Source: a virus
Direction: 5' to 3' (one strand)
DNA length: 33,576 nt
Virus record (IMG/VR): IMGVR_UViG_3300034064_000898
Span: 1-33,576 of that record
This document shows positions 9,207 to 33,362 of the stretch, piece by piece. The stretch's first letter is position 1; each line of letters starts with the position of its first letter. Both the position numbers and the translations under genes were made by a program. The notes under the pieces were generated by a model, which saw nothing but the letters and a program-made list of their open reading frames with translations, did no database searches and was not told the DNA's origin.

Positions 9207-10327
9207 CCGCCCGTCAACGCACAGTCTGGACATGGTCGGCCGTCGGCTTCGTGATCTTCGCCGCCATCGTCGGCGCGCTCGTCGAGCGGGCCACGCACCG
9301 GATCGCCGCCGGCGTGGAAAGCCGGTTCGGCTACACGCCGAATCCGGAAGGCGTCCGCGAGTTCCTTGCCGAACTGGATCAGCCTGAGTTCAAGGGCGCG
9401 GCTCCTGACGTGTTGCGAAACGCCAAAAACCGCGACACGTTCCTCTACCGCCACGCAGACCGAGCACACCGCGCCGTCTACGGGCGGCCGTTTGAGGTGT
9501 GGAATCAAGGCAACCACGGCTCCTGCGTTTCGTTCGGGTGGGCTATGGGATCGTTTGTCGGGCAGGCCGTGGACTGGACCGAGGGCGAGTTGCCCGATCC
9601 TCCGAAGCTCGTCGCCACCGAGCCGATCTACGGCGGCAGCCGGACGGCCGGCAGGCTCCCGCCCATCACGTTCGCCGGCTACTCCGATGGCTCCTACGGG
9701 GCCGCTGCGGCCCGCTGGGTGGTCGGCACGAAGGCCGGCGTCGGCGGCATCCTCTACCGTCAGAAGTACGGCAGCGTCGATCTCACGACGTACGACATCC
9801 AGACATCCCGCGAGTGGGGAGCGAACGGCGTCCCCGCCGCCCTCGCCAAGCAGGCCACGGAACACACCGCCCAGGGCGTTGCCCTCTGCGACTCGTGGGA
9901 TTCACTCGCGGCCGCCATTGAGAACGGCATGCCGGTGCCGATCTGCTCCAACGTCGGCTTTGCCACGACCAACGTCAGGGACGCCGACGGATTCCTTCCT
10001 CGAGGTGGAAACTGGTCCCACTGCATGGTCGTGATCGGCATCCGCTACAAGGCCAACGGCAGCCCGCGAGACGGTGCCCTCATCTGCAATTCTTGGGGCC
10101 AGTCGTGGGTGCGTGGAGGCCGTTTTCCAGACGACATGCCGGAGGGCTGCTTCTGGGCTGACCGCAAGGACATCGAAGCCATCCTCGCCCAGGGCGATTC
10201 GTTCGTCATCGCCGGCGTCAACGGCTGGAAGGCCCGCGACCTCGACAACGGCGCTTGGCTCGAGCCCGCCGCCGCCCGCCCGCAACCCGCCCGCGTGATC
10301 GCTGACACGTTCTCCCTCGCCCCGTGA
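9203..10327 (+). CDS. Membrane-anchored papain-family (C1-like) cysteine peptidase
   Basis: 374 residues from ATG 9203 (ATGA overlap). A hydrophobic segment at about 9-25 (WTWSAVGFVIFAAIVGALV) with basic residues before it acts as an N-terminal anchor. The rest is a C1-like peptidase. Q102 and C108 lie in QGNHGSCVSFGWA with the papain Q-to-C spacing of six, H273 in NWSHCMVVIGIRY and N296 in CNSWGQSW. The Cys/His/Asn triad and oxyanion Gln are therefore all visible. No propeptide of the usual eukaryotic type is recognised, although residues 40-100 could serve. It sits in a cluster of small membrane proteins just before the late terminator, where lysis genes usually lie. Proteolysis of envelope or adsorption-related proteins is inferred. 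Confidence 0.8.
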   Translation: MTARQRTVWTWSAVGFVIFAAIVGALVERATHRIAAGVESRFGYTPNPEGVREFLAELDQPEFKGAAPDVLRNAKNRDTFLYRHADRAHRAVYGRPFEVWNQGNHGSCVSFGWAMGSFVGQAVDWTEGELPDPPKLVATEPIYGGSRTAGRLPPITFAGYSDGSYGAAAARWVVGTKAGVGGILYRQKYGSVDLTTYDIQTSREWGANGVPAALAKQATEHTAQGVALCDSWDSLAAAIENGMPVPICSNVGFATTNVRDADGFLPRGGNWSHCMVVIGIRYKANGSPRDGALICNSWGQSWVRGGRFPDDMPEGCFWADRKDIEAILAQGDSFVIAGVNGWKARDLDNGAWLEPAAARPQPARVIADTFSLAP

Positions 10328-19475: not shown

Positions 19476-20165
19476 ATGGCGAAGGCAAAAGCTAGCACTA
19501 ACGGACACGTTAACAGGATTGCGGACGTTCTTCCGCAAGCTAACGGCACAGTCGAAACGAAGATTTCCGCTCCGAACTTCAAGACGGTCGAGTTGGTGTT
19601 GAAGGGCACCGCTCCGTACGTCCAGCTTGCGTTCGGCGAGAAGGCCCGCAACGTCATGCGTGAGAAGCAGGCGGCGGGATCGACGGCGAAGAAGGGCAAG
19701 AAGCGGGAGGCGAAGGACTTCGACGCTGCGTTCGAAGAAGCCCTTCACCGCAGCCGCGACGGCTGGTGCGGCATTCCGGCCGGGGCGATTCGCAACGCGA
19801 TGGTTGCCGCGTGCAGCATCGTCGATTTCCACATGACGAAGGCGAAGAAAGCCATCTTCATCGAGGCCGACGGATTCGACGCCGCCGAGGGGACGCCGCT
19901 GGTGCGGATCAACGGCGAACCGCGGCACGTCGAGCACTGCGTCCGCAACGCTACCGGCGTGGCCGACATCCGCGTGCGGGCGATGTACGACGAGGGCTGG
20001 ACGGCGACGATCCGCGTCCGGTTCGACGCTGACATGTTTACGGTGGCCGACGTTGCCAATCTCGTCATGCGTGCCGGCCTCCAGGTCGGCATCGGTGAGG
20101 GTCGGCCGTCGTCGAAGAACAGTTGCGGTATGGGCTGGGGCACGTTCGAAGTCATCAACCAGTGA
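19476..20165 (+). CDS. Conserved phage protein of unknown function
   Basis: 229 residues. ATG 19476 is chosen because upstream in-frame codons read poorly. The protein has a basic N-terminus, a Lys-rich stretch (about 75-85), and a conserved core (RDGWCGIPAGAIRNAMVAAC, VRNATGVADIRVRAMYDEGW, then NLVMRAGLQVGIGEGRP and SCGMGWGTFEV). The last motif (GIGEGRP...GMGWG.FEV) is one I recognise from phage proteins commonly linked to recombination functions. No catalytic residues are evident. The fold might be ferredoxin-like. It sits in the replication/recombination block. Confidence 0.6.
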   Translation: MAKAKASTNGHVNRIADVLPQANGTVETKISAPNFKTVELVLKGTAPYVQLAFGEKARNVMREKQAAGSTAKKGKKREAKDFDAAFEEALHRSRDGWCGIPAGAIRNAMVAACSIVDFHMTKAKKAIFIEADGFDAAEGTPLVRINGEPRHVEHCVRNATGVADIRVRAMYDEGWTATIRVRFDADMFTVADVANLVMRAGLQVGIGEGRPSSKNSCGMGWGTFEVINQ

Positions 20166-20173
20166 GGTGTTTT

Positions 20174-20626
20174 GTGGACAAGGAAGCGAAGCTCAAAGAG
20201 TTGGAGTTCGTTCGGTCGCAGCACGATGGCGTGCTGCGGCCGGAGGACGTGGTGGAGTTCGCCCGCAACGAGCGGACGGCTCTCCACGCCGATTTCCAAT
20301 GGGACGACACGGAGGCGGCACAGCAGTTCCGCCTCTGGCAGGCTCGGCAGGTGATTCGGTTGACCATCACGATCGTCGATTCACCGGCCGGCAAGCAGTC
20401 GATCCCGATGTACGTGTCGCTCGTCACCGATCGTCAGAAGCCAGGGGGAGGATATCGCCCGCTGGTGGACGTGATGACTGCGGAGGACATGCGTGACGAG
20501 CTGCTCCGCCAGGCCCTCGGCGAGTTGAAGACTGTTCGGAAGAAGTACCAGCAGCTTCAAGAGCTGCGGCCGATCTTCCGGGCGATTGAGAAGGTCGAGG
20601 AGAAGACGCAGGGGCAGCCGGCGTGA
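20174..20626 (+). CDS. Conserved phage protein upstream of the repeat tract
   Basis: 150 residues from GTG 20174 (GAGGTG upstream). Its N-terminal region has the pattern LRPEDVVEFARNERTALHAD-FQWDDTEAAQQFRLWQAR and IRLTITIV, found in a phage protein family of unknown function. The second half is helical (EDMRDELLRQALGELKTVRK, a coiled coil ending in IEKVEEKTQ). It is the last gene before the 1-kb G-rich repeat tract, and its stop touches the first repeats. Confidence 0.55.
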   Translation: MDKEAKLKELEFVRSQHDGVLRPEDVVEFARNERTALHADFQWDDTEAAQQFRLWQARQVIRLTITIVDSPAGKQSIPMYVSLVTDRQKPGGGYRPLVDVMTAEDMRDELLRQALGELKTVRKKYQQLQELRPIFRAIEKVEEKTQGQPA

Positions 20627-21632
20627 CTGCAGGAGTGGCGTGGGATGGCGTGGTGCGGTGAGGCAGAGCGACGAGAGGCATGGCAGGAGTGGCGGGGCGA
20701 GGTGGGGCAGCGCAAGGCGCGGCAGGAATGGCGTGTCCTGGCGAGATCTGGAGAGGAACGGAAGGCGCGGCAGGCGACGTAAGGCACGGCCAGGAGCGGA
20801 AGGCTTGGAGCGGAATGGCAGGAGTGGAATGGCGAGGCGCGGCGCGGAGCGTCAGGTTTGGAGAGATAGGGCAAGGCACGGCAGGAAAGGCGCGGACTCG
20901 TGCGGATGCGCATCGCAAGGCTTGGCAGGTATGTAAAGGCTCGGCGCGGCACGCAGCGGACCGGAAGAGACGGCATTGCGTGGCAGGAATCGCAGGGCTT
21001 GGTCGGGCTCGGTTAGCAACGGCGTGGTGCGGAGCGGATCGAAATGGCACGGCAGGAGTGGCGGGGACTGGATCGGTAGGGAGTGGCGAGGCAGTGCAGG
21101 CGCGGGCGAGGCCCGGTTAGGCAAGGCCACGAAGGCACGGCAGGAGAGGCTCGGTATGGCGGGGCGCGCAGCGGAACGGAACGGCAGTCACGGACCGGAA
21201 AGTCCCGGCGGGGCAGCCAAAGGCACGGCAGGACTGGCACGGCAGCGATGGGAGCGGCAAGCAGAGGCACGGCAGGAATGGCGTGGCAAGGACCGGACCG
21301 GAACGGAGTGGCACGGCAGCAAAGGCTCGGTGCGTCGCGGTGCGGTGCGGTTAGTTGCGGCACTGCACGGCAGGAATGGCTAGGAGCTTTTTGGCGCGAA
21401 GTGGTATGGAGCGTCACGGCAGCAATGGAATGGCGCGGCGCGGCCGGGCTAGGTCGGGAGCGGCAAGGCTAGGCAGGAACGGATCGGCGTGGAATGGGTT
21501 CGCTTGGTAACGAACGGCACGGCAGGAATGGTTTGGATAGGAGCGGTGTGCGAGGCGCGGCAGTCGCGGTCGGGCACGGTAAGGCGCGGTGCGGAATGCC
21601 GCGGAGCGGAAGGCACGGCAGGCACGGATAGT
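20627..21632 (+). repeat. 1-kb non-coding G-rich quasi-pentameric repeat tract
   Basis: No gene with normal codon use is visible in this about 1,000-bp stretch, although the composition leaves long frames open. GG doublets recur about every five bases on the plus strand (for example at 21266-21310: AATGG, CGTGG, CAAGG, ACCGG, ACCGG, AACGG, AGTGG in succession). A longer motif close to GGCACGGCAGGAATGG recurs with variation about a dozen times (near 20717, 20875, 21044, 21135, 21224, 21266, 21306, 21364, 21511, 21612). The plus strand is extremely G-rich and T-poor. By hand I count about 54 GGA and only about 2 TCC. It lies between a conserved phage gene and the replication-initiator-like genes. 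Origin, structured non-coding RNA and recombination-prone repeat are all possible. Confidence 0.75.
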
Positions 21633-21642
21633 AAATACGACC

Positions 21643-22065
21643 ATGTCCGAAGAATACGAACTCCTCCCGGTGACACAGCTCCGCGATCTTGCGGATCAGT
21701 GTGGCCGGCGGCATTGGACAAGCGACAAGCCGATTCCGGCCTCGAGCTACTTCGTGCAGAGGAGCCGGGTGGAGAACTGGCGGATCGTGGCCCGGATGAT
21801 CCGGCAACACTCCGACAAGATGGCCGACCAGAGGATCAGCTTGGCGGTGTGGTGCTCGGTCTGCCAGGCGGTGGACATGCACCTCGGCGAGCCGGCGATG
21901 AGTTGTGAGAAGGAGCGGACCTTGGCGGCCCTTGCTGTCGCCGACCGGGCTGACGCGGAGACGGAGTTGGCGAAGTTTGCCTGCCACCGGATGCAGGGCG
22001 GGTCGAAGTCGTGGGCGCAGTGGATGGGGCTCGTCGCCCCGTGGGAGGTGCTGGATGGCGGGTGA
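21643..22065 (+). CDS. Hypothetical phage protein downstream of the repeat tract
   Basis: 140 residues from ATG 21643. Upstream in-frame codons belong to the repeat tract, so this is the sensible start. Its leader is AT-rich (ATAGTAAATACGACC) and lacks a clear ribosome binding site. Features include LPVTQLRDLADQCGRRHWTS, WCSVCQAVDMHLG and a helical C-terminus (ADAETELAKFACHRMQGG). Not recognised. It overlaps the next gene. Confidence 0.5.
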   Translation: MSEEYELLPVTQLRDLADQCGRRHWTSDKPIPASSYFVQRSRVENWRIVARMIRQHSDKMADQRISLAVWCSVCQAVDMHLGEPAMSCEKERTLAALAVADRADAETELAKFACHRMQGGSKSWAQWMGLVAPWEVLDGG

Positions 22066-26393: not shown

Positions 26394-27638
26394 TTGAAAA
26401 TCCGAGACCGAATCCGTGAGCTTCGCCGCGTCCCGGCGTCTGAACTGCGGCCGAACCCAAAGAACTGGCGGACACACCCACAGGCCCAGGCCGACGCTTT
26501 GCGTGGCGTCCTGGCGGAAGTCGGCATCGCCGACGCCGTCCTCGCCCGCGAGCTGGAAGACGGCTCGCTCATGCTGCTTGACGGGCACCTCCGCGTCGAG
26601 ACGATGGGCGACCAAGTCCTGCCGGTTCTCGTCCTTGATGTGAACGAGGCAGAAGGCGACAAGGTGCTAGCCACGCTCGACCCGCTGGCAGCGATGGCGG
26701 AATCAGATGCCGCGAAGCTGGACGCGATTCTTCGGGACGTGGACACCGGATCGCCGGAACTGCAACAGATGCTCGCCGATCTCGCCGAAGAGGCAGGGCT
26801 CTACAAGGACGAGGCGAAGGAAGTCGTCGAAGACGAAGTGCCCGAGCCGCCGATCGATCCGATCACCAAGCCCGGTGACCTGTGGACGCTTGGCGATCAT
26901 CGCCTGCTCTGTGGCGACTCGACGAAGGCGGAGGATGTCGAGCGGCTGATGGCGGGGGCGAAGGCGGATCTATGGCTGACCGACCCACCGTATGGAGTGG
27001 CCTACGAGTCTGCTGGCCGCAGAGGCAAAGACAACCAGCATGAGGAAATCGAAAACGATTCGCGTCCGCTCGATGAGATGGCGAAGTTCTGGGAGCAAGC
27101 TGCAACGCTTGCGTACTTGTCATGCAGCGGCTCATCGTCTTACTACTGGTTTGCCTGCCAGGGGGGCGACCAGATGATGATGATGATGATGAGCATTTCC
27201 AGTGCCAAATGGCGCGTTCGTCATGAGTTGATATGGGTTAAGGATCAGATGGTTTTCGGTCGCTGCGATTACCACTACAAGCACGAGCCGATCCTCTACG
27301 GCTGGAAGCAAGACGGAACGCACAACTGGAACACAGACCGGAAGCAGGTCAGCGTCTTGGAGTTTGCTCGGCCAAAGCGATCCGACGAGCATCCCACCAT
27401 GAAGCCGGTCGCACTGGTGGCATACCTCCTCGGCAACAACACAACCAAGGGCGATTCGGTGCTCGACACCTTCTGCGGCTCCGGCACCACCCTCATCGCC
27501 GCGGAGCAACTTGGCCGCAAGTGCTTCGGAATGGAGATCAGCCCGGCGTACTGCGATGTGATCGTGAAGCGGTGGGAGACTCTGACCGGCAAAAAGGCTG
27601 AACTCGACAAGCCGCAGAAGAAGCCGAAGCCGAAATAA
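26394..27638 (+). CDS. ParB-like plus DNA methyltransferase (N6-adenine/N4-cytosine) protein
   Basis: 414 residues from TTG 26394 (GGGAGG upstream). Residues about 15-90 form a ParB/Srx-type domain with LLDGHLRVE (61-69). From about 155 the methyltransferase domain has LLCGDST, then the catalytic TDPPYG (196-201), then FCGSGTTLIAAE (360-371) and FGMEISPAYCDVIVKRW. This is the class with DPPY before FxGxG (beta order). A run of six Met (261-266), encoded by six tandem ATG codons (27173-27190), lies in an otherwise conserved helix. It modifies phage DNA, probably against restriction. Such fused genes commonly sit next to the terminase. Confidence 0.88.
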   Translation: MKIRDRIRELRRVPASELRPNPKNWRTHPQAQADALRGVLAEVGIADAVLARELEDGSLMLLDGHLRVETMGDQVLPVLVLDVNEAEGDKVLATLDPLAAMAESDAAKLDAILRDVDTGSPELQQMLADLAEEAGLYKDEAKEVVEDEVPEPPIDPITKPGDLWTLGDHRLLCGDSTKAEDVERLMAGAKADLWLTDPPYGVAYESAGRRGKDNQHEEIENDSRPLDEMAKFWEQAATLAYLSCSGSSSYYWFACQGGDQMMMMMMSISSAKWRVRHELIWVKDQMVFGRCDYHYKHEPILYGWKQDGTHNWNTDRKQVSVLEFARPKRSDEHPTMKPVALVAYLLGNNTTKGDSVLDTFCGSGTTLIAAEQLGRKCFGMEISPAYCDVIVKRWETLTGKKAELDKPQKKPKPK

Positions 27639-27641
27639 CGC

Positions 27642-29804
27642 ATGGCCGACGATCGCCTGCAAAAAGCCGCCGAGGCCGAGAAGAAGCTGCGGCAGCAGCT
27701 CAAGGCTCTGCGTGAACTGCGAGGCAAGGCCGGCAAACGATCCGGCTCCTACGAGTCCCACAAGGAGCGCACGGCCGCTCGCCAGGCGGAGCTGTCCGAG
27801 TCCGGCCGCGACATCGGCGAGTTGCCGGCTGTGGTCGATCCCGCCCGCAAGGCCGCGGCCAGAGATTCCTTTAAGGTCTTCTGCGAGACGTACCTACCGG
27901 CGACGTTCATTCTCGACTGGTCGCCGGATCACCTCACCGCGATTGCCAAGATCGAAGGCGCGGTGCTTCGCGGCGAGTTGTTTGCCTTTGCCATGCCGCG
28001 CGGCTCCGGTAAGACGAGTCTCGTCGAGGCCGCGTCGATGTGGGCGCTGTTCTACGGCCACAGCTCGTTCGTGGCGATTGTCGGGGCCGACGAAGAGCAC
28101 GCGAAGGGCATGCTCGGCTCGATTAAGGTCGAGTGCGAGAGCAACGAGCTGATCCTCGATGACTTCCCCGAAGTCGCCTTTCCGATCGTGTCGCTCGAGC
28201 GGATCAACAACCGAGCCCGCGGTCAGCTCTACAAGGGCAAGCCGACGAACATCGAGTGGAAAGCTGAAGAGATTCAACTGCCGGCCATCCCCGGCTCGCC
28301 GGCGTCGTCCGGTGCAATCAAGGTCGCCGGCATCACCGGCAAGATTCGCGGGATGTCGATCAAGCGGGCCAGCGACGGCAAGAAGGCTCGCCCGTCGCTG
28401 GTGTTGATCGACGACCCGCAGACCGCGGAGTCGGCCAACAGCCCGTCACAGGTCACATCTCGAGAGCGGATCATCGCTGGCGACATCCTCGGCCTCGCCG
28501 GCCCCGGCAAGCGGATCGCCGGGCTCTGCACCGTCACGGTCATCCGCACCGACGACCTCGCCGACCGGCTCCTCGACCGGCAGAAGCACCCGTCCTGGCA
28601 AGGCGAGCGGACGAAGCTCGTCTACGAGTGGCCTGACGCCGAAGACGATTGGAGCCAGTACGCGGAGCTGCGGCGCGAGGGTCAGCGGGACGGCACCGGC
28701 ACCGGCGCGGCCGACGAGTTCTACCGCCAGCGGCAAGCCGCGATGGACGCCGGCAGCCGAGTGGCGTGGCCGGAACGGAAAGCCCCCGACGAACTGTCGG
28801 CGATCCAGCATGCCTGGAATCTCCGGATCGATCGCGGCGAAGCGGCGTTCAACGCCGAGTTTCAAAACTCGCCGCTCGCCGACGACATCACGACCGACAA
28901 GCTCGACAAGCGGCAGCTCCCGCTGCGAGCGACGAACATCGCCCGCGGGATCGTGCCGGCCGGTCACACGAAGCTGACCGCGTTCGTTGACGTGCAGGAC
29001 CGATTGCTTTACTGGCTCGTGGCGTCGTGGTCGGAGTCCTTTGGCGGGCACGTCGTCGCCTACGGGTCGCACCCCGATCAAGGCGCGTCGTTCTTCGAGG
29101 CCGGGTCGGCTCGCAAGACGTTGGCACTCGCATCGCCTGGGGCAGGGTTTGAGGCGGCGCTACGTGCCGGCCTGGACGAGACGGCGCGGCTCTTGCTGGC
29201 CCGCGACTGGCAGCGGGAAGACGGCGTGCCGATGCGGATCTCGCAACTCATGGTGGACGCGAACTGGGGGCAATCGACGGCAGTCGTGAGGAACTTCGCC
29301 CGGTCGTCTCCGTTCGCGGCACAGATCCTGCCGAGCCGCGGCAAGGGTGTCGGGGCATCGGGTACGCCGATGGGGCCGCGGAAAAATCGCGGCGATCGTG
29401 CCGGCCTGAACTGGCTCGTCGGCAAGACCGCCGAGGGAACGCAGATCGAGGCCGCCTACGACACGAACTTCTGGAAGACGTTCGTCTCCGGCCGTCTGCG
29501 GCTCGGGCTCGGCGATCCGGAAGCGATCATGCTGCACGCCGGCAATCACGAGATGCTGATCGAGCACCTCGTCGCCGAGTTCCCGGTCCGCGTCGAGGCC
29601 CGCGGCCGGAGCGTGGACGAGTGGAAGTCGGTTGCCCGCGAGAATCACTGGTGGGACTGTCTCGTCGGGTGCGCCGTCGCGGCGTCGATCACCGGCCTCG
29701 AGCCGGCCGCCAGCGAGGGCGGATTCCGCAAGCGGAAGAAGGTCAGCATCCCCGCCGGCCCTGACGGCAAGCGGGTGATCGTCACGAAGCGCCACAAGGC
29801 GTAG
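27642..29804 (+). CDS. Terminase large subunit (packaging ATPase/nuclease)
   Basis: 720 residues, ATG 27642. It drives packaging of DNA into the prohead. The ATPase part has Walker A PRGSGKTS (119-126) and Walker B LVLIDDP in PSLVLIDDPQT (about 250). A helical extension (1-75) precedes it. The nuclease region has acidic residues in LTAFVDVQD (about 450), LMVDANWG (about 540) and HWWDCLVG near the end. The protein is long for a large subunit, and the overall arrangement resembles GpA-like terminases. No separate small subunit is seen directly upstream. The methylase gene takes that place. Basic tail (KRKKVSI...KRHKA). Confidence 0.88.
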   Translation: MADDRLQKAAEAEKKLRQQLKALRELRGKAGKRSGSYESHKERTAARQAELSESGRDIGELPAVVDPARKAAARDSFKVFCETYLPATFILDWSPDHLTAIAKIEGAVLRGELFAFAMPRGSGKTSLVEAASMWALFYGHSSFVAIVGADEEHAKGMLGSIKVECESNELILDDFPEVAFPIVSLERINNRARGQLYKGKPTNIEWKAEEIQLPAIPGSPASSGAIKVAGITGKIRGMSIKRASDGKKARPSLVLIDDPQTAESANSPSQVTSRERIIAGDILGLAGPGKRIAGLCTVTVIRTDDLADRLLDRQKHPSWQGERTKLVYEWPDAEDDWSQYAELRREGQRDGTGTGAADEFYRQRQAAMDAGSRVAWPERKAPDELSAIQHAWNLRIDRGEAAFNAEFQNSPLADDITTDKLDKRQLPLRATNIARGIVPAGHTKLTAFVDVQDRLLYWLVASWSESFGGHVVAYGSHPDQGASFFEAGSARKTLALASPGAGFEAALRAGLDETARLLLARDWQREDGVPMRISQLMVDANWGQSTAVVRNFARSSPFAAQILPSRGKGVGASGTPMGPRKNRGDRAGLNWLVGKTAEGTQIEAAYDTNFWKTFVSGRLRLGLGDPEAIMLHAGNHEMLIEHLVAEFPVRVEARGRSVDEWKSVARENHWWDCLVGCAVAASITGLEPAASEGGFRKRKKVSIPAGPDGKRVIVTKRHKA

Positions 29805-30054: not shown

Positions 30055-31509
30055 ATGGGAATCGTCTCCCTCATCCGCACCGGCCGCTGGTCGCCTCCGA
30101 AGAAGGCGATTCAGGTCGTCCGTCCACTCGCACGAGCGCGGTTCGACGCTGCCCAGACGAGCGACGATTCGCGGCACTGGGCCAACGCTGACGCGCTCTC
30201 GGCAAACGCCGCCCTATCGCCGGAAGTCCGGCGGATCATCCGCAATCGTGCCCGGTACGAGCGGGCCAACAACGCCTACGTCCACGGCATCTGCGTCACC
30301 AAGTCCAACGACTTGATCGGCACCGGGCCGCGAATCCAACTCTCCACCGGCTACGCCGACGCCGACCGTGCGATCGGCCGGGCGTTTTTCGATTGGTCGT
30401 GGTCCGTCCGCCTGGCCGACAAGCTCCGCACGTCCACCGAGGCCCGCGTCCTCGACGGCGAAGCGTTTTGCATGTTCTTTACGAATCCCCGGCTCGACTC
30501 ACGGGGCGTGCAGCTCGACCTCCGGCTGATCGAGGCCGACCAAGTCGCCTCGCCGGCGTACGACTACCAGCAAACAATTTCGCCCGACGGCTCGCTTGTG
30601 GACGGTGTCGAACTGGACCGGCACGGCAACGTGATCGCGTTCCACGTTCTCACGTCGCACCCCGGCTCCAACTACCTGATCGGCATCAACGAGTACGACA
30701 CAATTCCCGCCGAGAACATGCTGCACTGGTTCCGGCCGACCCGGCCGGGCCAGCACCGCGGGCTCTCGGAGTTGACGCCGTGCCTGCGGCTGACGGCCAA
30801 CATGCGGCGTTACACGGAAGCGGTCATCCGCGCCGCGGAGATCGCCGCCGACCTTGCCGCGTTCGTCCACTCGAACTCGCCCGCCGCCCAGGTGGACGAG
30901 GTAGACGCCTTCGCGGCGATCGAGATCGAGAAGGGCACGCTCACTACTTTGCCCGAGGGCTGGGATATCTCGCAGCTCAAGGCCGAACAGCCGACGAACA
31001 CGCACCAAGCCTTCACGCGAACGATCCTCAGCGAGATCGCTCGGGGCGTGAACTTGCCGTATTACAAGGCCGCCTTCGACGCCTCGTCCTACAACTACTC
31101 TTCCGCCCGCCTGGACGGCCAACTGCACGAGCAGAACGTCCGCGTCGAGCGTGACGAACTCGAGAGGGCGTGGCTCGACCGCATCTTCCGCGAGTGGCTC
31201 GACGAAGCCCTTCTCGTCCCCGGCATGATCCCCGCCGGGCTGCCGCCGGCTTCGGAATGGAATTGGGCTTGGGTTTGGGACGGCCGCGAAGGCGTCGATC
31301 CCAACAAGGAAGCCAACGCCACCGAGACGAAGTTGGCCACGCTCACGACGAGCCTCGCCGCCGAGTACGCCCGCCAGGGGAAGCAATGGGATGTCGAACT
31401 CCGGCAGATCGCTGCCGAACGTGAACTCATGGCCGAACTTGGCCTGACGCTTGGCGAGCGTCCTTCTCAGCTTGTCGTCCCCGACCCGACGCAAGGAGGC
31501 AACGCATGA
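30055..31509 (+). CDS. Phage portal protein, lambda family
   Basis: 484 residues from ATG 30055, directly after the previous stop. It forms the dodecameric portal through which DNA enters. Lambda-type portal features are visible: RRIIRNRARYERANNAYVHG, DGEAFCMFF, LRLIEADQVASPAYDY, a conserved ENMLHWFRPTRPGQHRGLSE (about 222-242) and the helix ILSEIARGVNLPYYKAAFDA, followed by YNYSSARLDG. The N-terminal 40 residues are basic. It overlaps the protease-capsid gene by ATGA. Confidence 0.92.
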   Translation: MGIVSLIRTGRWSPPKKAIQVVRPLARARFDAAQTSDDSRHWANADALSANAALSPEVRRIIRNRARYERANNAYVHGICVTKSNDLIGTGPRIQLSTGYADADRAIGRAFFDWSWSVRLADKLRTSTEARVLDGEAFCMFFTNPRLDSRGVQLDLRLIEADQVASPAYDYQQTISPDGSLVDGVELDRHGNVIAFHVLTSHPGSNYLIGINEYDTIPAENMLHWFRPTRPGQHRGLSELTPCLRLTANMRRYTEAVIRAAEIAADLAAFVHSNSPAAQVDEVDAFAAIEIEKGTLTTLPEGWDISQLKAEQPTNTHQAFTRTILSEIARGVNLPYYKAAFDASSYNYSSARLDGQLHEQNVRVERDELERAWLDRIFREWLDEALLVPGMIPAGLPPASEWNWAWVWDGREGVDPNKEANATETKLATLTTSLAAEYARQGKQWDVELRQIAAERELMAELGLTLGERPSQLVVPDPTQGGNA

Positions 31510-33362
31510 GCGGACTGACGCTTCGTGCCGATGTGCGATTCCTGACCGCCGACGCTTACGGCGAGGCTGAAAGTCTATCGACGCCGCGGATTCCGCGGTT
31601 CTCGATGGTGGGCTACACCGGCGGCATCATCCGCCAGGCGTGGAGCCGCGAGCCGGTCGTCATCGATCTCGCCGGCATGACCGTGCCGAGCGTGGTGCCG
31701 ATCGTCTTCGGGCACGACTACTCGCTCGAGTCGGTGCTGGGCCAGGGCACCGGCACCGTCGGCGATCAGCTCGTCATCGACGGGTCGATCCTCGCTCAAT
31801 GCGAAGCGGCCATGCAGGTCGTCCAGCTCGGCGACCGCGGCTACCAGTGGCAAGCATCGGTTGGCGCTGACGTTGACGAGCAGACGCTCGTCGGGTCTGG
31901 CGACGCCGTCACCGTCAACGGCCGGACCTTTGAAGGTCCGGTGCGAATCGTAACGCGTTCCACGCTGCGGGAATGCTCGTTTGTCACGCTCGGGGCCGAT
32001 GCAGCGACGGCCGTCACCATTACCGCGAAAGCGGGGGAGTCTCCTATGTCCGATGAGACGAAGGCCGCCGACGGTATGCCGACGGGGCCAGCGCAGAGCG
32101 AAGAGCACGGCGGCGCAATGCCGACCGGACCCAGCGACGTGGCGAGTGCCGCTCCGAAGATCGACGTGCTGTCGATCCGCGAGCAGATCGTGACCGAGGT
32201 GAAGGAGGAGCTGTTGAAGACCCTCCGTGAGCAGCGCGGCCCGGCGATTCACGCCAGCAAGCCGGCCCTCGACGACGATCAGGTGACGATCGCCGCCATG
32301 CAGATGGTCGGCGGGCTCGGCAAGCAGATCGAAGCCAAGCACGGCGATTCGCCGATGATCGAGGCCGCTGCCAAGCGGTCCCGCACGATCGGCCTGCAAG
32401 ACGTGCTTCTCAGCGCGGCCCGGAAGGGCGGCTACGACGGGGCTCAGAAGGTCAACGCATCGAATGTGGCGGTGGTGCTGCGGGCGGCTTTCGCCACGCA
32501 CAACATCTCCAACATCCTCGCCGCGACCTACGGCAAGTACCTCCTCTCGGGCTTCGAGGCCGTCGAGTCGGTGTGGGAGCAGATTTCGCTCGTGCGTCCG
32601 CTGAACGATCTCAAGGCCGCCACCGGGGTTCGCCTCGACGGCGGGTTCGTGTTCGACGAAGTGGGCAACGACGGGAAGCTCAAGTCGGCTGATGCCGGCG
32701 ACGCGGCCCGCACTCTCCAGGCGAAGACCTACGGCCGGATGTCGTCCATCACTCGGACCGACATCATCAACGACGATCTCGGGGCTCTGACGGCGGTTCC
32801 CCGCCGGCTCGGTCGCGGTGCCGCGTTGAAGTTCAATCAAGTCTTCTGGGCCGCGTTTGAGGCGTCGAACTCGACCTACTTCCAGGGTGCGACGGCCGGT
32901 GCCGGCAACGCTCTGGCGATCGGTTCGGTCGAGACGGCTTACGGTGCGTATCGGTCGCTTACCGATCCGGACAGCGCTCCCCTCGGCATCACGCCGAAGA
33001 TCCTGCTCGTGCCGGTGGGGCTGCGGATCACGGCCGACAAGATCCAGACGGGCAACACGCTCCTCGCGTCGTCGCTCGGCTCGACCTCGTCCAAGGTGCT
33101 CGAGCCCCAGGCGAACGTGCTCGCCGGGAAGTTCACGATCGTCGATTCGGCCTACCTCTCCTCGTCTTCGACGTGGTGGCTGGCGGCCGACCCGGCGGAT
33201 CTCCCGACGATGGAAGTGGGCTTCCTGAACGGTCAGCGTCAGCCGACCGTCGAACAGGCGGAGGCCGACTTCGACACGCTCGGCATCCAGGTTCGCGGCT
33301 ACTTCGACTTCGGTGTCAGCAAGGCTGAAAGCCGCGCTTGCTACCGGATGGCGACTGCCTGA
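31506..33362 (+). CDS. Prohead protease-major capsid protein fusion
   Basis: 618 residues from ATG 31506 (ATGA overlap). Residues 1-175 resemble an HK97-type prohead protease, with a candidate catalytic H70 in VFGHDYSLE and S158 in LRECSFVTLGAD. A linker with repeated MPTGP motifs (about 190-215) follows, then a charged scaffold-like helix (about 225-250). Residues about 310-618 are a major capsid protein: LLSAARKGGYDGAQ, ASYGKYLLSGFEAV-like, VRLDGGFVFDEVG, a middle AAFEASNSTYFQGA and the final GIQVRGYFDFGVSKAESRACYRMA. A strong internal ribosome binding site precedes M181, so a scaffold-capsid product may also be made separately. Confidence 0.88.
   Translation: MSGLTLRADVRFLTADAYGEAESLSTPRIPRFSMVGYTGGIIRQAWSREPVVIDLAGMTVPSVVPIVFGHDYSLESVLGQGTGTVGDQLVIDGSILAQCEAAMQVVQLGDRGYQWQASVGADVDEQTLVGSGDAVTVNGRTFEGPVRIVTRSTLRECSFVTLGADAATAVTITAKAGESPMSDETKAADGMPTGPAQSEEHGGAMPTGPSDVASAAPKIDVLSIREQIVTEVKEELLKTLREQRGPAIHASKPALDDDQVTIAAMQMVGGLGKQIEAKHGDSPMIEAAAKRSRTIGLQDVLLSAARKGGYDGAQKVNASNVAVVLRAAFATHNISNILAATYGKYLLSGFEAVESVWEQISLVRPLNDLKAATGVRLDGGFVFDEVGNDGKLKSADAGDAARTLQAKTYGRMSSITRTDIINDDLGALTAVPRRLGRGAALKFNQVFWAAFEASNSTYFQGATAGAGNALAIGSVETAYGAYRSLTDPDSAPLGITPKILLVPVGLRITADKIQTGNTLLASSLGSTSSKVLEPQANVLAGKFTIVDSAYLSSSSTWWLAADPADLPTMEVGFLNGQRQPTVEQAEADFDTLGIQVRGYFDFGVSKAESRACYRMATA
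32033..32048 (+). promoter_or_regulatory. Internal ribosome binding site and start in the protease-capsid gene
   Basis: GGGGGAG (32033-32039) stands six bases before an in-frame ATG at 32046 (codon 181), the beginning of the linker and scaffold region. It is stronger than the signal for the full-length start at 31506, which relies on translational coupling. It would give a 438-residue scaffold-capsid product, in the way lambda expresses Nu3 from inside C. Confidence 0.55.

Follow-up and report, generated by a model that had tools for sequence, protein, structure and literature searches.

The G-rich tract at positions 20627-21632 of the window (i.e. the whole stretch of 33,576 nucleotides analyzed here) is, with a probability that we put at about 0.92, the guide-RNA (vrRNA) array of a phage VIPR system. 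Portal, terminase, and head genes occur in the window, which comes from a virus record, and its relatives were found among viral contigs and phage isolates. PHROG matches also point to a head maturation protease fused to a major head protein (31506-33362) and to a DNA methyltransferase with a ParB-like part (26394-27638). A 2026 preprint (PMC13142463) describes Vipr as an ancestral RAMP protein and vrRNAs as strings of GGY/NN pentamers, and has the systems act between phages. According to the same account, VIPR is mainly encoded by phages and proviruses, comprises seven types, with staggered arrays among them, and is related to CRISPR, whose forerunner it is proposed to be (PMC13142463). An earlier inspection of the letters without database searches (the sequence-only reading) had not recognized the tract as a described element; VIPR provides the match. 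The locus is minimal, consisting of vipr, one small accessory gene, and the tract:

19476-20165, plus strand: vipr (RAMP/Cas7-like, phrog_4652, E = 9.8e-17), 229 aa; the longest ORF starts at GTG 19395
20174-20626, plus strand: accessory gene (vap-like, phrog_15946, E = 2.6e-18) with a predicted winged-helix-like N-terminal part
20627-21632, plus strand: probable vrRNA array of about 168-180 GG(C/A/T)NN pentamers, in units linked by the 4-nt phase break GGCA (period, shuffles, segmentation, and family logo)

Structure of the tract

The tract begins at the stop codon with which the accessory gene ends (20626) and reaches to about 21630, just short of the ATG at 21643. On the plus strand it contains 464 G, 219 C, 206 A, and 117 T (i.e. 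46% G and 12% T), which agrees with the strong strand asymmetry noted before. GG doublets had been said to recur about every five bases. With 500 dinucleotide-preserving shuffles of the tract as a null model, the GG-to-GG value at lag 5 was 0.588, compared with 0.183 expected (z = 15.1). Lag 10 was also enriched (z = 11.6, same shuffles), GG recurrence was depleted at lags 2-3 and 6-8, and the commonest GG spacings were 5, 4, 10, and 9. An ORF survey of the window found no reading frame open across the whole tract, as expected from its description as about 1 kb of non-coding DNA; the 5-nt period runs through all three frames, which counts against coding. Tandem-repeat and period analysis gave diverged 5-nt units only, and no near-identical CRISPR-type repeats with unique contiguous spacers. 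In a simple consensus scan, no promoter or terminator was found.

The motif GGCACGGCAGGAATGG, of which diverged copies had been reported, was found 15 times at up to three mismatches, every copy lying in the tract and on the plus strand (0.66 expected in the whole window). It corresponds to the junction between units. In related loci, a unit has the form GGCA + (GGYNN)8-11. Across 142 of these loci, the distance from one GGCAGG junction to the next peaks at 44, 49, 54, and 59 nt; all are 4 modulo 5, because the 4-nt GGCA sits between pentamer runs. A family logo built from 1111 GGCAGG junctions in the 142 loci showed GG at 0.4-1.4 bits per position, a third base that was mostly C, and NN at about 0.1 bits or less away from the junction. 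Hence, GG is constant while the NN pair is near-random. An RNA-encoding tract beside vipr with alternating GGY and hypervariable NN, as seen here in both the lag-5 signal (z = 15) and the 142-locus logo, is one of the features that define VIPR. Growth by slippage had been suggested for the tract, but the regular phase breaks and the near-random NN argue for a stored code over plain slippage. In the window, the junction and the following candidate guide units were delimited:

21266-21281, plus strand: unit junction GGCACGGCAGGAATGG, exact copy (junction logo); a second exact copy lies at 21516-21531, and the tract holds 13 further, diverged copies
20986-21050, plus strand: guide unit, 13 pentamers between GGCAG junctions, 10 of 13 GG intact; NN = AT AG TT CG TC TA AC GT GC GC TC AT AC
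21143-21182, plus strand: guide unit, 8 pentamers; NN = GA TC AT GG GC GC AC AC
21231-21270, plus strand: guide unit, 8 pentamers; NN = CT AC AG TG GC AA GA AC
21275-21314, plus strand: guide unit, 8 pentamers, 8 of 8 GG intact; NN = AT GT AA CC CC AC GT AC
21422-21471, plus strand: guide unit, 10 pentamers; NN = AT AT GC GC CG TA CG GC AA TA
21476-21520, plus strand: guide unit, 9 pentamers; NN = AC TC GT AT TT TT AA AC AC

Between window units, no 3′ tail of the SUSP1 kind was found; the GGYNN pattern restarts directly after GGCA. GG is intact in 80% of the window pentamers and not intact in 20%. The third base of the intact ones is C in 49%, A in 35%, and T in 15%, so that Y occurs in 64%. 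Loss of GG and A at the Y position could mean that the array is partly decayed or that it follows a related consensus; the VIPR consensus as given in PMC13142463 allows related variants besides GGY. In the closest relative (L065, with a Vipr 89% identical), the third base is A in 26% and GG is intact in 74%. This similarly A-rich third base looks like a habit of the subclade. Array turnover among near-identical loci was variable, with 39-100% of 30-mers shared at 100% vipr identity.

The vipr gene and its linkage to the tract

The protein encoded at 19476-20165 belongs to phrog_4652, a family of unknown function, and Pfam and PADLOC searches with it returned nothing useful. A profile of 99 homologues, however, matched PDB entry 36pp, 'SUSP1 Vipr protein' (E = 7.3e-6), the sole PDB protein with E below 0.001. 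In the SUSP1 genome, the same profile picked the ORF at 28474-29061 (E = 4.8e-9), which is flanked by GGY/NN tracts. A first guess that had put the SUSP1 vipr at 74.6 kb was discarded, since the profile places it at 28.5-29.1 kb. The AlphaFold model (pLDDT 90) superimposed on Csm3 with Z = 11.3 and an rmsd of 3.7 over 154 residues. The top 50 PDB matches listed by Foldseek were all chains of CRISPR effector complexes, at 8-15% sequence identity among the top structural matches. Vipr proteins are described as RAMPs with an RRM core and a glycine-rich loop (PMC13142463); the window protein combines the SUSP1 profile matches and the Csm3-like fold with a Gly-rich C-terminal stretch (GIGEGRP..GMGWG). 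Taken together, Vipr homology, fold, and the GGY/NN tracts of SUSP1 identify the window locus as a VIPR locus. The accessory protein was modeled with a pLDDT of 94; its winged-helix matches were weak (Z = 4.4-5.6), and the PDB fold search gave no match above Z = 5.6. Both ORFs are intact and conserved.

Relatives were fetched with the 19476-20165 gene from viral contigs and genomes. A phrog_15946 gene was present in 153 of 174 vipr loci, and a same-strand tract in 108 of 113 vipr loci with full flanks. The earlier view of the tract as functional and strand-specific is supported. Near vipr, 192 tracts lay on the vipr strand and three on the opposite one. Their placement varies: they are found downstream of vipr and the accessory gene, between them, upstream, or on several sides. 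As controls, 32 initiator relatives without vipr were inspected, of which one had a weak periodic stretch and 31 were clean. Since the tract tracks vipr and is all but absent from vipr-less initiator loci, we assign it to the 19476-20165 gene rather than to replication. The prediction of a conserved position with drifting sequence held with respect to vipr and the accessory gene, but not with respect to the initiator at 22055.

The module was also detected in cultured phages, namely (i) the Gordonia phages UmaThurman, Pipp, and Ecliptus; (ii) Cyanophage Cy-LDV1; and (iii) Mycobacterium cluster F phages (Quico, Donkeykong, and Saal). In Ecliptus, it is located among tail genes, between the tail-assembly and tape-measure genes, and in the cluster F mycobacteriophages the tract lies beside an excisionase gene. 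The impression that mycobacteriophages lack the tract was rejected, as it was found upstream of vipr there. Several side observations were made. Annotated hypothetical proteins overlap the arrays of UmaThurman (gp40, L061 5649-5972), Pipp (gp43, L063 4703-4972), and Donkeykong (gp48, L060 4456-4842) and are probably not genes. In Mycobacterium phage Gorge, gp54 (L064 4613-5680) runs from the first half of vipr through another frame into the accessory gene; given this frameshift, Gorge may be without a working Vipr, and its array remains. Ecliptus has a second stretch with a 5-nt GG period (OP820472.1, 51246-51526, minus strand); it lies a long way from vipr, on the opposite strand, and may be an orphan array. 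A contig assigned to Bacterium HR16 (L072, 6630-9250) carries three separate periodic tracts beside vipr; the phrog_15946 partner was not detected in it.

The tract had been assigned to a replication/recombination block, and an origin of the iteron type, to which the initiator-like protein at 22055 would bind, would suit a non-coding tract 0.4 kb upstream of the initiator-like gene (phrog_2509, E = 3.5e-43). We consider an origin very improbable: 31 of the 32 vipr-less initiator relatives have no tract, the tract accompanies vipr in contexts as unrelated as the Ecliptus tail genes and the cluster F excisionase, and iterons are near-identical copies, whereas the NN pairs are near-random. Even less credit is given to structural DNA, be it a two-tetrad G-quadruplex array or a recombination platform for a Sak4/RecA-like protein. 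Such DNA would account for one strand being rich in G (46%), and the sequence-only reading had placed recombination-type genes nearby, but a quadruplex array requires no strict 5-nt phase, no pyrimidine after GG, no regular GGCA break, and no tight linkage to a RAMP gene, and, like the origin, neither explanation is needed. The chance that the tract encodes a repetitive protein, with frameshifts in its reading, appears close to nil. Short ORFs (116-208 aa) do overlap it, and annotators called such ORFs in UmaThurman and Pipp; yet no frame is open throughout, the period passes through all of them, and an AT-rich relative (L054) contains the stop-giving pentamers GGTAA, GGTGA, and GGTAG. Among the functions originally suggested, an RNA is the best reading.

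Target searches and the predicted gapped code

In the published mechanism, the RNA is coated by Vipr, GGY stays unpaired, and the NN pairs read the target DNA with a 1-nt skip (PMC13142463). Decoded guides of mycobacteriophages and Gordonia phages were searched in phage genomes at skips of 0-3. A unit of Quico/Florinda matched the tape-measure gene of Che8 at 9 of 9 NN pairs from the exact unit start (19 of 20 bases), and did so at skip 1 only; other skips gave 3-6 mismatches and permuted guides at least four. In gene 14, the tape-measure gene, every skipped base occupies codon position 3 (10461-9469 = 992, remainder 2). By simple arithmetic, about 0.004 matches of 18 bases are expected by chance among the mycobacteriophage and Gordonia guides. 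Che8 has no vipr. No further target was found in Tweety or Fruitloop.

Another unit, from locus L007, matched an ORF of L027, which is related to the window phage through its initiator gene, at 18 of 18 bases from junction to junction, with the skip on codon base 3. This ORF (9543-9959) contains RPDVDNVAKAVLDAL, and the gapped match falls on that conserved stretch. The ORF may resemble RusA resolvases, and RPDVDNVAKAVLDAL is reminiscent of the RusA resolvase motif. A sliding-guide search (1408 guides, 1.7 Mb) yielded three exact matches at skip 1, one at skip 0, and none for permuted guides; only that of L007 to L027 was unit-exact. The unit-based skip-1 search over all loci showed no overall excess compared with permuted guides. 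For the window's own guides, zero targets were obtained in the fetched loci, in two exact IMG/VR scans, and in two scans of 392 Planctomycetota genomes.

This bears on whether the array still guides in this phage. A decaying VIPR remnant would be compatible with the lack of targets in IMG/VR and the Planctomycetota genomes, with GG intact in just 80% of pentamers, and with A at the Y position in 35%. We regard this as unlikely, though worth keeping in mind: vipr and the accessory ORF are intact and conserved, and the closest relative has a similarly A-rich third base (26%) at 74% GG.

Proposed mechanism and comparison with known systems

In the VIPR mechanism that we propose for the window, the array, which lies on the same strand directly behind vipr and the accessory gene, would probably be co-transcribed with them. 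The RNA would be a string of units, each with GGCA followed by about 8-11 GG-Y-NN pentamers. Vipr, as a small Cas7-like RAMP, may oligomerize on this RNA with one subunit per pentamer, gripping GGY and leaving it unpaired, so that successive NN pairs could read double-stranded DNA while passing over one target base between them (NNxNNx...). Complexes bound in this way would repress genes carried by rival phages or mobile elements, and the accessory protein probably helps at the DNA. Binding of Vipr to vrRNA transcripts has been demonstrated for SUSP1 and P. fulva (PMC13142463); for SUSP1-type complexes, the same source reports the 1-nt-skip rule, repression, and phage defence. The window array is presumed to be transcribed, processed, and used for targeting. 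The window's clade, characterized by a phrog_4652 Vipr, a phrog_15946 accessory protein, and tail-less arrays with a 4-nt GGCA phase break after every 8-11 pentamers, is possibly a VIPR type outside the published ones with its own guide processing. In such a type, GGCA would set the end of a unit, and many guides would arise from a single long transcript; we hold this idea as tentative and rather doubtful.

VIPR matters as a proposed forerunner of CRISPR and as a weapon of phage against phage. In PMC13142463, detailed descriptions are given for two systems, those of SUSP1 and P. fulva. More than 100 viral loci share the long tail-less array form, as do cultured phages of Mycobacterium (cluster F) and Gordonia and a cyanophage genome. 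Because a Quico guide has a predicted target in Che8 and both phages infect M. smegmatis, the code and the phage-against-phage role are testable in existing isolates.

The window locus is VIPR, an already described kind of system, with an array form that differs from that of SUSP1. The system of Escherichia phage SUSP1 (type II; KT454805) resembles that of the window: it is phage-encoded, its RAMP protein is picked up by the profile of the window family, GGY/NN pentamer tracts accompany vipr in the same orientation, and a small accessory gene adjoins vipr. In SUSP1, four transcripts are made individually, each about 100 nt long and ending in a 3′ tail (PMC13142463), whereas the window has one continuous, GGCA-linked, tail-less array; the invariable structured 3′ tail after each vrRNA that characterizes type II (the SUSP1 clade) does not occur in it. 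In name and length, the phrog_15946 protein and P0006 of SUSP1 differ. By description, the head-to-tail array of the window is most similar to the staggered arrays of VIPR, in which vrRNAs overlap (PMC13142463, fig. S18). TIGR-Tas, also compared by description, resembles the window in being phage-encoded with a tandem guide array and a small protein, but the Tas protein has an RNA-interaction domain of its own (PMC12045711), whereas the window protein is a RAMP. With the RAMP proteins of class 1 CRISPR-Cas systems (Csm3/Cas7), the window Vipr shares its fold and the expected oligomerization on guide RNA; the window locus departs from these systems in being minimal and in having short units that lack both identical repeats and contiguous spacers.
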